Below the pieces are notes generated by a model. It was given only the letters and a program-made list of their open reading frames with translations, ran no database searches and was not told the DNA's origin. A stretch of DNA of 38,059 bases from Thiogranum sp. (GTDB lineage: Bacteria > Pseudomonadota > Gammaproteobacteria > DSM-19610), in NCBI GenBank assembly GCA_030148915.1, contig JASBSN010000102.1:1-38059 (forward strand), written 5' to 3'. Of the stretch, positions 11,294 through 12,062 are shown in pieces (the stretch's first letter is position 1; every line of letters begins with the position of its first letter). The position numbers and the translations under genes were made by a program.

Positions 11294-11326
11294 GCGGAAA
11301 CCCCAAACCACCGCTCGAACCTGCTG

Positions 11327-11359
11327 AAAAAAACGGCGAGCCCTTATGGACTCGCCGTT
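11327..11359 (-). terminator. Intrinsic terminator of the repeat-peptide gene
   Basis: On the minus strand AACGGCGAG (11359-11351) pairs with CTCGCCGTT (11340-11332), with a 10-nt loop, followed by a run of T (11333-11327). It lies 65 nt after the stop of the gene at 11425. On the plus strand the hairpin is followed by TTGTGTTGT, so it may also weakly end transcription of the gene at 10997. Confidence 0.85.
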
Positions 11360-11424
11360 GTGTTGTCCACTTACACCCCGCCGTATGACCAGCTTACCGA
11401 CACGGCCGCGTGTTTGTAGCGGGA

Positions 11425-11694
11425 CTAGCCTCTTTCGTTCTTTGACCCCTTCGAGGCCTTAAACGAAGACTTGAAAGACGATTTGAACGATGACTTAAAG
11501 GATTTTCTAAAGCTCTTCCCTGGCGTACGCGTGTTAACTGACTGGCTGATGGCCGCATAGCCGGGCTTCATCAACATCATCACCGCCGGGGGTGTATACA
11601 CGGCAAATTTGCCGGCCTTTTTCAGAAAGTCTCTGCGAGCACTGTTATTCTCAGACTGAGCAACGCCAGTCTCTTCGTTTGTGTGATCAGACAT
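11425..11694 (-). CDS. Cationic xSFK-repeat peptide with Tat-like N-terminus
   Basis: 89 residues in three parts. Residues 1-20 are a polar, acidic leader (MSDHTNEETGVAQ). Next comes a twin-arginine segment SARRDFLKK followed by a hydrophobic stretch FAVYTPPAVMMLMKPGYAA that resembles a Tat signal. The C-terminal part has five tandem four-residue units (KSFR, KSFK, then SSFK three times), ending ASKGSKNERG. If cleaved near GYA-AIS, the mature peptide is about 42 residues with 11 basic and 1 acidic residue. The repeat codons differ from unit to unit, so the pattern is held at protein level. GAGG 9 nt before 11694 supports this start over the ATG at 11709. The gene has its own promoter and terminator. 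Its function is unknown; an exported antimicrobial, nucleic-acid-binding or modified peptide are guesses. Confidence 0.8.
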   Translation of the reverse strand: MSDHTNEETGVAQSENNSARRDFLKKAGKFAVYTPPAVMMLMKPGYAAISQSVNTRTPGKSFRKSFKSSFKSSFKSSFKASKGSKNERG

Positions 11695-11850
11695 TTGAGT
11701 TAACCTCATTTATAGTTTTCAGTAGTACCATTGCTGTTACCGATTCAATCCCTCGGCGACTGTACGTGGCGTGCAGGTCACCGACCTACATGTTTTCCTG
11801 TCTGCCGGTCTCTGCGGCTCAAAATTCAGCCCCGCAGGCACGCCCACTGG
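11695..11850 (-). promoter_or_regulatory. Long 5' leader with start-stop mini-ORF
   Basis: About 155 nt lie between the predicted transcription start and the ATG at 11694. In the leader, a good ribosome-binding site (CAGGAAAAC) precedes ATG (11791-11789), which is followed at once by TAG (11788-11786). This is a minimal ORF that could hold or release ribosomes. Two hairpins can form nearby: CTGC..GGCT/AGCC..GCAG and AGGTC-GGT-GACCT. These are seen in sequence; a regulatory role is inferred. Confidence 0.45.
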
Positions 11851-11855
11851 AACTC

Positions 11856-11884
11856 AAATTAGTCGGATCTCAAAGGCCTGTCAA
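11856..11884 (-). promoter_or_regulatory. Promoter of the repeat-peptide gene
   Basis: On the minus strand a perfect -35 TTGACA (11879-11884) is 17 bp from a -10 TAATTT (11856-11861). This is one of the two best sigma-70 promoters in the window and faces only the gene at 11425. Confidence 0.75.
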
Positions 11885-12062
11885 GAGTCCGCGCCTAAAA
11901 CGCCGAAGCCTCTTGAGAACAGCAATTTATGCAAAAATTACAACCAGTTGATTTACCTTCAAACAGGTACCGGCAGCCCCAGCGCAGCTGTAAGACAATG
12001 CCGCGCGGTGTTGTCGGAAATTGCCCTCATCGGTTTATGCCGCCGCGCTGGCGCCGCGCGCA
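11885..12062. other. Intergenic stretch without a recognisable gene
   Basis: Together with the leader and promoter, 368 bp separate the repeat-peptide gene from the DUF2007 gene. This upstream part has AT-rich tracts near 11925-11960 that could bind regulators, and GC-rich complementary runs near 12000-12060, but no coding region I would defend. Confidence 0.4.

Follow-up and report, generated by a model that had tools for sequence, protein, structure and literature searches.

An orphan Thiogranum gene from a family of precursor-like peptides with Tat-like leaders, encoded in some relatives beside HprK-like kinases

Introduction

What does a solitary gene for a small, strongly basic repeat peptide make in a genome that shows none of the enzymes encoded beside its relatives? 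The question is raised by a locus near the first third of the window, the whole stretch of DNA that was analysed (38,059 nucleotides, contig JASBSN010000102.1 of Thiogranum sp.). The original prediction, made from the letters alone, had offered an exported antimicrobial, a polyanion- or DNA-binding peptide, or a precursor whose modifying enzymes are encoded at another locus. The last of these comes closest, because the genes of related peptides have kinase and nucleotidyltransferase genes as neighbours; such enzymes were not, however, found elsewhere in the window genome. On balance, we consider it probable that the gene is an orphan member of a Tat-leader precursor family. Relatives link this family to an RRE(PqqD)-HprK kinase and an NTP_transf_5 protein, and we read it as working like the linear polyphosphorylated peptides (LPPs) of Bacillota.

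Results

The gene, its frame and its repeat

The features of the peptide gene are as follows.

11425–11694, minus strand: coding sequence of the 89-residue orphan precursor-like peptide (ATG at 11694; stop codon 11427–11425)
11617–11637, minus strand: Tat-like motif RRDFLKK, residues 20–26, read from the sequence and conserved in alignments
11581–11598, minus strand: YTPPAV, residues 33–38, which fits the RRE-binding leader motif [Y/W]xxPx[LVIAFY] given in PMC13381572
11554–11562, minus strand: predicted signal-peptidase cleavage between residues 47 and 48 (GYA↓A), read from the sequence; relatives repeatedly show a site ending in Ala
11545–11547, minus strand: Ser50, residue 3 of the predicted mature peptide and candidate phospho-acceptor by analogy with Ser3 of LppA (PMC13381572)
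11458–11517, minus strand: repeat KSFR-KSFK-SSFK-SSFK-SSFK, five units, residues 60–79, assessed by shuffles and codon comparison

The predicted 89-residue product with an acidic leader, RRDFLKK, a hydrophobic stretch and five xSF(K/R) units, for which no strand had been given, was confirmed on the minus strand. From its acidic N-terminus the peptide runs through RRDFLKK and a hydrophobic stretch containing YTPPAV to GYA↓A, beyond which the tail is basic and rich in Ser, and the sequence GAGG is found 9 nt upstream of the ATG. Past residue 45 there are 11 K/R and one D/E, a net charge of +10, in agreement with the value of about +10 expected for the mature part. Five consecutive SF(K/R) units with a period of four were obtained in none of 100,000 composition-preserving shuffles of residues 46–89, the shuffle maximum being three. 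The SFK codons of the three SSFK units, compared pairwise, show two synonymous and no non-synonymous changes, and TRF detected no DNA tandem repeat at these units, which bears out the synonymous variation that had been noticed in the repeat codons. The window gene is real: its leader is conserved, as described below, and its repeats are statistically odd.

Promoter, terminator and surrounding DNA

Three further features concern the DNA around the gene.

11332–11359, minus strand: intrinsic terminator, strong, with a 12-bp stem, a 4-nt loop and a T tail, about 65 nt past the stop codon
11856–11884, minus strand: weak promoter candidate TTGACA-17-TAATTT, 9/12, found by eye and absent from the scan's output
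11300–12062, no strand: AT-richer stretch at the site of a DUF815-type ATPase gene in three relatives, defined by GC windows and synteny

The intrinsic terminator was thus upheld, in the form of its strong 12-bp stem and T tail, whereas the near-consensus promoter of the original prediction was not: the −35 element TTGACA (11884–11879) is perfect, but the −10 element TAATTT, read by eye, matches at only 3/6 positions, and the consensus scan gave no promoter on the minus strand. No known RNA family (Rfam) matched between 10900 and 12500. The GC content of 200-base windows at the peptide locus, up to 12099, is 46–55%, against 54–69% in flanking windows. At the syntenic place in three relatives (G009, G015 and G016), a gene of 258–274 aa lies between a 98-aa gene and a DUF2007 gene; the G016 copy is a DUF815 gene, and a search of the window genome, run without a separate positive control, found no DUF815 gene. 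The peptide locus looks like a local replacement at the DUF815 place.

A phage origin of the window gene was considered and set aside; the phage collection gave no match, and the window's three tRNA genes (Thr, Gly and Tyr) lie at its start, at 220–489. Family peptides are present on ten contigs of a viral collection, with no kinase or NTP gene in the stretches of those contigs that were examined.

Conserved leaders and divergent cores among relatives

The window genome (G000) is a draft of 135 contigs, 99% complete, with about 1% missing. Queried with the whole peptide, 4 of the 20 genomes of its bacterial family gave matches. A leader profile matched in 9 of 369 genomes of the class, seven of them in short frames that were kept and two (G377 and G254) in long open frames that were set aside; a wider profile matched in 10 of 398 genomes of the phylum, eight with short frames, the long-frame matches in G408 and G478 not being counted. 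A protein scan of a genome collection recovered at least 24 loci, with 22 from Mesorhizobium, one from Thiohalobacter and one from Aureimonas among the matches listed.

Alignment of the leaders of four peptides from the window's genus revealed 15 invariant columns out of 38. Between G000 and its nearest relative, G012, the leader (26 codons) has accumulated 12 changes at 17.7 synonymous sites and two at 60.3 non-synonymous sites (pS 0.68, pN 0.03), and by this measure is under purifying selection. A profile search with the Tat-like segment and a comparison of the cores had been proposed as a check of the original prediction: the leaders of relatives align well, but most of their cores do not. 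Judged by these alignments, the window peptide belongs to a family in which the leader stays constant and the core varies. HprK-like kinases adjoin a second type of leader (RRDFLKKAGYVAPVI...) in five genomes (G007, G010, G015, G016 and G334), while no such kinase was found within the stretch examined near the second-type leader of G202. Four second-type loci (L034, L035, L037 and L044) share a common core, GNNGIGQEKRG...DGPPPGLAKK..., with an adjoining HprK-like kinase in three of the four.

In the G000 core all five aromatic residues come immediately after a Ser or Thr, as do five of the six in the core of G012 (shuffle P 0.0026 and 0.00014, respectively, for a pattern that was tested post hoc, having been spotted before it was shuffled), and both cores are strongly basic, with 12 K/R and one D/E in G012 and 11 K/R and one D/E in G000. 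Elsewhere in the family most cores are rich in Gly, several being of the GNNGxGNG type, and net charge lies between −4 and +7; the exception is G008, whose peptide (L005:1279–1647) has a Lys-rich, partly masked core of KKVA units with a period of four. In the rhizobial copies on viral-collection contigs, the cores contain GGNSTKGGK units. With the KKVA and GGNSTKGGK cores, repeated basic cores are thus seen more than once in the family. The claim that the repeats are selected is accordingly upheld in part: the five Ser/Thr-aromatic pairs and the equally basic core of G012 speak for it, but the cores of most relatives are quite different. Decay of the repeats in relatives, named beforehand as evidence against the original prediction, is close to what was found, with G012 as the exception.

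GGNSTKGGK repeat cores were read in the solo peptides at L116–L119. A copy on Sinorhizobium meliloti pSymB (L120:5001–5276), likewise solo, is identical over residues 1–48 to the peptide of L118, and lies near genes for an O-antigen ligase and an undecaprenyl-phosphate glucose phosphotransferase.

Tat features and a candidate docking motif in the leader

The features of a Tat signal are present in the window peptide (ARRDFLKK, a hydrophobic stretch and the AxA-type site GYA) and likewise in its relatives; the residue preceding RR is Ala in the window peptide and Ser in G012. The window peptide was reported by neither TIGR01409 nor PF10518, and the best scores among relatives were 15.5 bits with the former (cut-off 16.7) and 11.2 bits with the latter (cut-off 22.7). 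The description of the N-terminus as Tat-like is supported by conservation in the alignments of relatives, though no Tat model reached its cut-off in any peptide tested. The Ala-ended cleavage site, present in 46/46 peptides, was not counted as evidence, since the core search pattern itself required Ala. In 16 of 17 peptides chosen for closer comparison, the first Ser falls within residues 1–5 of the predicted mature part.

These 17 peptides, hand-picked to span the family, were also compared for the RRE-binding motif [Y/W]xxPx[LVIAFY], which is present in eight leaders, including YTPPAV of the window peptide and all six type-2 leaders. All eight come from the 11 leaders of the window's class; none of the six leaders from outside the class has the motif, the Tyr being replaced by Val, Thr or Phe. 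For the 11 leaders of the class, the chance of a match in shuffled sequence ranges from 0 to 0.11 per leader; because of these values a match in a single leader is weak evidence, and its recurrence is better evidence, though from leaders that are related to one another. Tat signals are not known to require a YTPPAV-type segment.

Kinase and nucleotidyltransferase genes beside relatives

In G012 and G013, the peptide gene is followed by a gene for a PqqD-HprK-like kinase fusion and then by an NTP_transf_5 gene. In G212 the fusion gene adjoins the peptide gene, and NTP_transf_5 lies elsewhere on that contig. The order on S. meliloti pSymB is serine kinase, nucleotidyltransferase, peptide, and is identical in Ensifer canadensis. 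Among the 24 loci listed by the protein scan, kinase and NTP_transf_5 are both present at 11 (0/13 at control loci), and a kinase was not seen at 13. A kinase or NTP gene was found at 7 of 19 short-frame loci of the phylum search (the window's own locus excluded; flanks of about 1.5 kb). At the level of whole genomes, a tally of the 14 that carry type-1 peptides showed NTP_transf_5 in 12, the exceptions being G000 and G008 (71% complete); matches to the G012 protein occur in 8 of 20 genomes of the bacterial family, where it is not rare.

Linkage is not uniform. Mesorhizobium amorphae CCBAU 01570 has one enzyme-linked peptide (L017) and two solo peptides (L012 and L015). In strains of this kind, the enzymes could plausibly act in trans. 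The protein query for the kinase found relatives in 9 of 20 genomes, three of the nine loci (L032, L033 and L036) being without a pattern-matching peptide. A protein of 196–235 aa is encoded divergently from the peptide at L006:1125–1832, L031:3319–4020 and L040:1963–2553, in the genomes G012, G013 and G212; its G012 copy matched no Pfam or NCBIfam model. Downstream of the G012 genes, at L006:5057–7190, lie acyltransferase-like (HGSNAT/OpgC) and sulfotransferase genes, hinting at a surface-glycan setting.

The peptide-linked kinases are similar to TIGR04352, with scores below the cut-off, and PF05402 (PqqD/RRE) was detected in the kinase fusions. Lasso-peptide kinases are described in a review (PMC9266682) as having a His-Lys-Asp-Asp motif. 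The His, the P-loop Lys and the Asp are kept in 13/13 kinases chosen for alignment, the next position being Asp in eight and Glu in five, so that by sequence the catalytic residues are kept in the peptide-linked kinases. In eight aligned NTP_transf_5 proteins, KG and a later SDxD are kept in 8/8. The structure predicted for the G012 fusion is of low confidence overall (mean pLDDT 59), the kinase half being a low-confidence region; residues 6–90 match leader-bound lasso B1 structures (6jx3, Z 11.4; 5v1u, Z 11.3) as well as PqqD, and the N-terminus of the fusion is thus modelled as a lasso B1/RRE domain. The C-terminal part matched PEPCK entries only (Z 5.4–7.1, 4.4–5.3 Å), and these were not relied on. 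The model of one NTP_transf_5 protein gave weak nucleotidyltransferase matches, the best, counting the top row, having E 0.0028 (a MenAT toxin-antitoxin complex). A sequence search of solved structures with the fusion and the NTP protein gave no match.

Enzymes not found in the window genome

As originally predicted, no maturation gene adjoins the peptide gene, and the kinase, PqqD and NTP genes of relatives have no match anywhere within the window. In the rest of G000, PqqD was not found by a profile search that was positive in 3 of 14 control genomes, and NTP_transf_5 was not found by a search positive in 2 of 14. An HprK-A-like kinase was found neither with the TIGR04352 profile, a negative that is weak taken alone because the profile found nothing in any control genome, nor with a protein query that was positive in 9 of 20 genomes. 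Neither kinase nor NTP_transf_5 was found in G008, a genome 71% complete. Since the 99%-complete window genome shows no PqqD, HprK-like kinase or NTP_transf_5, modification of the peptide in the window organism is unproven.

Discussion

Leader conservation, gene linkage and enzyme absence were observed directly, within the limits of the searches; beyond them, we infer docking, phosphorylation, Tat export and any role of the product. In the mechanism proposed for relatives, the PqqD/RRE portion of the kinase would hold a YxxPx[V/I]-type motif within the signal peptide, and the kinase would phosphorylate a Ser of the core. The NTP_transf_5 protein may attach a sugar or a nucleotide. The finished peptide would be exported by Tat, with signal peptidase cutting after the Ala-ended site. 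The SFK repeats of the window peptide may represent a multiplied form of the Ser-aromatic-basic core of G012. As the leader is intact and no family enzyme was found, the window product itself is most likely a Tat-exported 42-residue peptide of charge +10, either unmodified or modified by an enzyme that belongs to other families or is missing from the assembly.

How far the window gene departs from this scheme can be read in several ways. The peptide could be an exported cationic peptide that is active unmodified, as an antimicrobial or by binding polyanions of the envelope or matrix, with the kinase link being ancestral only. We regard this as rather unlikely overall, and as a fair rival where the window gene itself is concerned. 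Its net charge of +10, the lack of any modification enzyme in the searches of the genome, and the Lys-rich period-4 core of G008, likewise found with neither kinase nor NTP_transf_5 (71% complete, core partly masked), are all in line with it; yet conservation extends to the YTPPAV segment of the leader, for which Tat signals have no recognised use, and G012, whose core is cationic and Ser-aromatic in a similar way, is linked to a kinase. Presence in only 4 of 20 genomes of the bacterial family, an AT-rich locus where relatives carry DUF815 and a core that is not conserved across the family could instead mark a relic that has lost its operon enzymes and whose peptide and repeat now drift. The intact frame, the good terminator, purifying selection on the leader relative to G012 and the purely synonymous differences among the SSFK units make this improbable. 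Slightly less probable again is that the maturation enzymes are encoded in an unassembled part of the draft: 135 contigs and about 1% of missing sequence leave room for them, and distance from the enzymes is not odd given that some rhizobial genomes hold both solo and kinase-linked peptides, but three independent markers (PqqD, kinase and NTP_transf_5) would all have to be missing.

The preferred reading, an orphan member of a kinase-linked Tat-leader family, allows a further suggestion, which we offer tentatively and hold to be somewhat less likely true than false. One leader may do two jobs, with an RRE-docking YxxPx[V/I] motif placed inside the Tat signal of a Gram-negative phosphopeptide family, such that the peptide would be decorated by the kinase, and possibly glycosylated, in the cytoplasm and then exported by Tat. 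Multi-Ser cores, the SFK repeat among them, would then offer rows of acceptor sites on a positively charged carrier, which might serve surface polysaccharide.

With these assignments, genes annotated as 'hypothetical protein', including the S. meliloti pSymB copies, are linked to a class of kinase-modified peptides that came to light only recently. The family suggests the Tat pathway, rather than a dedicated ABC exporter, as the route of export, and raises the question of what role such a leader plays when searches of its genome find none of the enzymes.

Comparison with known systems

For the enzyme-linked relatives, by analogy, "works like an LPP precursor" is the best fit. As described in PMC13381572 (Nat Commun 2026), LPPs of Bacillota have constant YxxPxV leaders and variable cores and are associated with an RRE and an HprK-like kinase, which phosphorylates Ser3 of the linear LppA core; the LPP NTP transferase was inactive in the heterologous host. 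The YTPPAV of the window leader is of the YxxPx[V/L] type of RRE motif, but the fuller consensus given there, YxxPxVLxHQxIxFETxxS, differs from the window sequence, which reads YTPPAVMMLMKPGYAAISQS. An HprK-like kinase, an RRE and an NTP transferase are encoded beside the peptide in relatives, as in the LPP clusters described there, whereas none was found in the window or its genome. LPP clusters, as the same paper describes them, include an archaeal-type SpI signal peptidase and an MsbA-like transporter, neither of which is among the annotated neighbours at L048 and L049 (S. meliloti and Ensifer). Against that description, the present family also differs in its Tat-like leader, the fusion of RRE to kinase in relatives and its Pseudomonadota hosts, and the window gene in having no cluster. 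Because the cluster genes are missing and the full consensus is absent, LPP membership is not claimed for the window gene. No description of a Tat-leader version of such phosphopeptides was recognised in the literature searched.

Lasso peptides of the paeninodin and pseudomycoidin type (PadeK, ThcoK, PsmK and PsmN) likewise combine a Ser-tailoring HprK-like kinase with a nucleotidyltransferase, PsmN being required for addition of hexose to phospho-Ser, and have a B1/PqqD-type protein that reads the leader, according to PMC9266682. The annotation near the S. meliloti and Ensifer peptides (L048 and L049) shows no macrolactam cyclase C or B2 peptidase, however, and the family has a Tat-like leader and a core that is not lasso-like. 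TIGR04117, a model for a Cys-Xaa-Xaa-Xaa repeat radical SAM target, has a four-residue repeat in its title and shows a weak leader similarity to three relatives (L040, L048 and L024; E 0.026–0.054), but these scores are far under its cut-off, there is no Cys repeat, and the window peptide was not reported. In the HPr-rel-A system (TIGR04352 kinase, TIGR04353 PqqD), both proteins are akin to the peptide-linked ones, which fall under the curated cut-offs; among those tested, only the protein at L032 passes, at a locus with no pattern-matching peptide.
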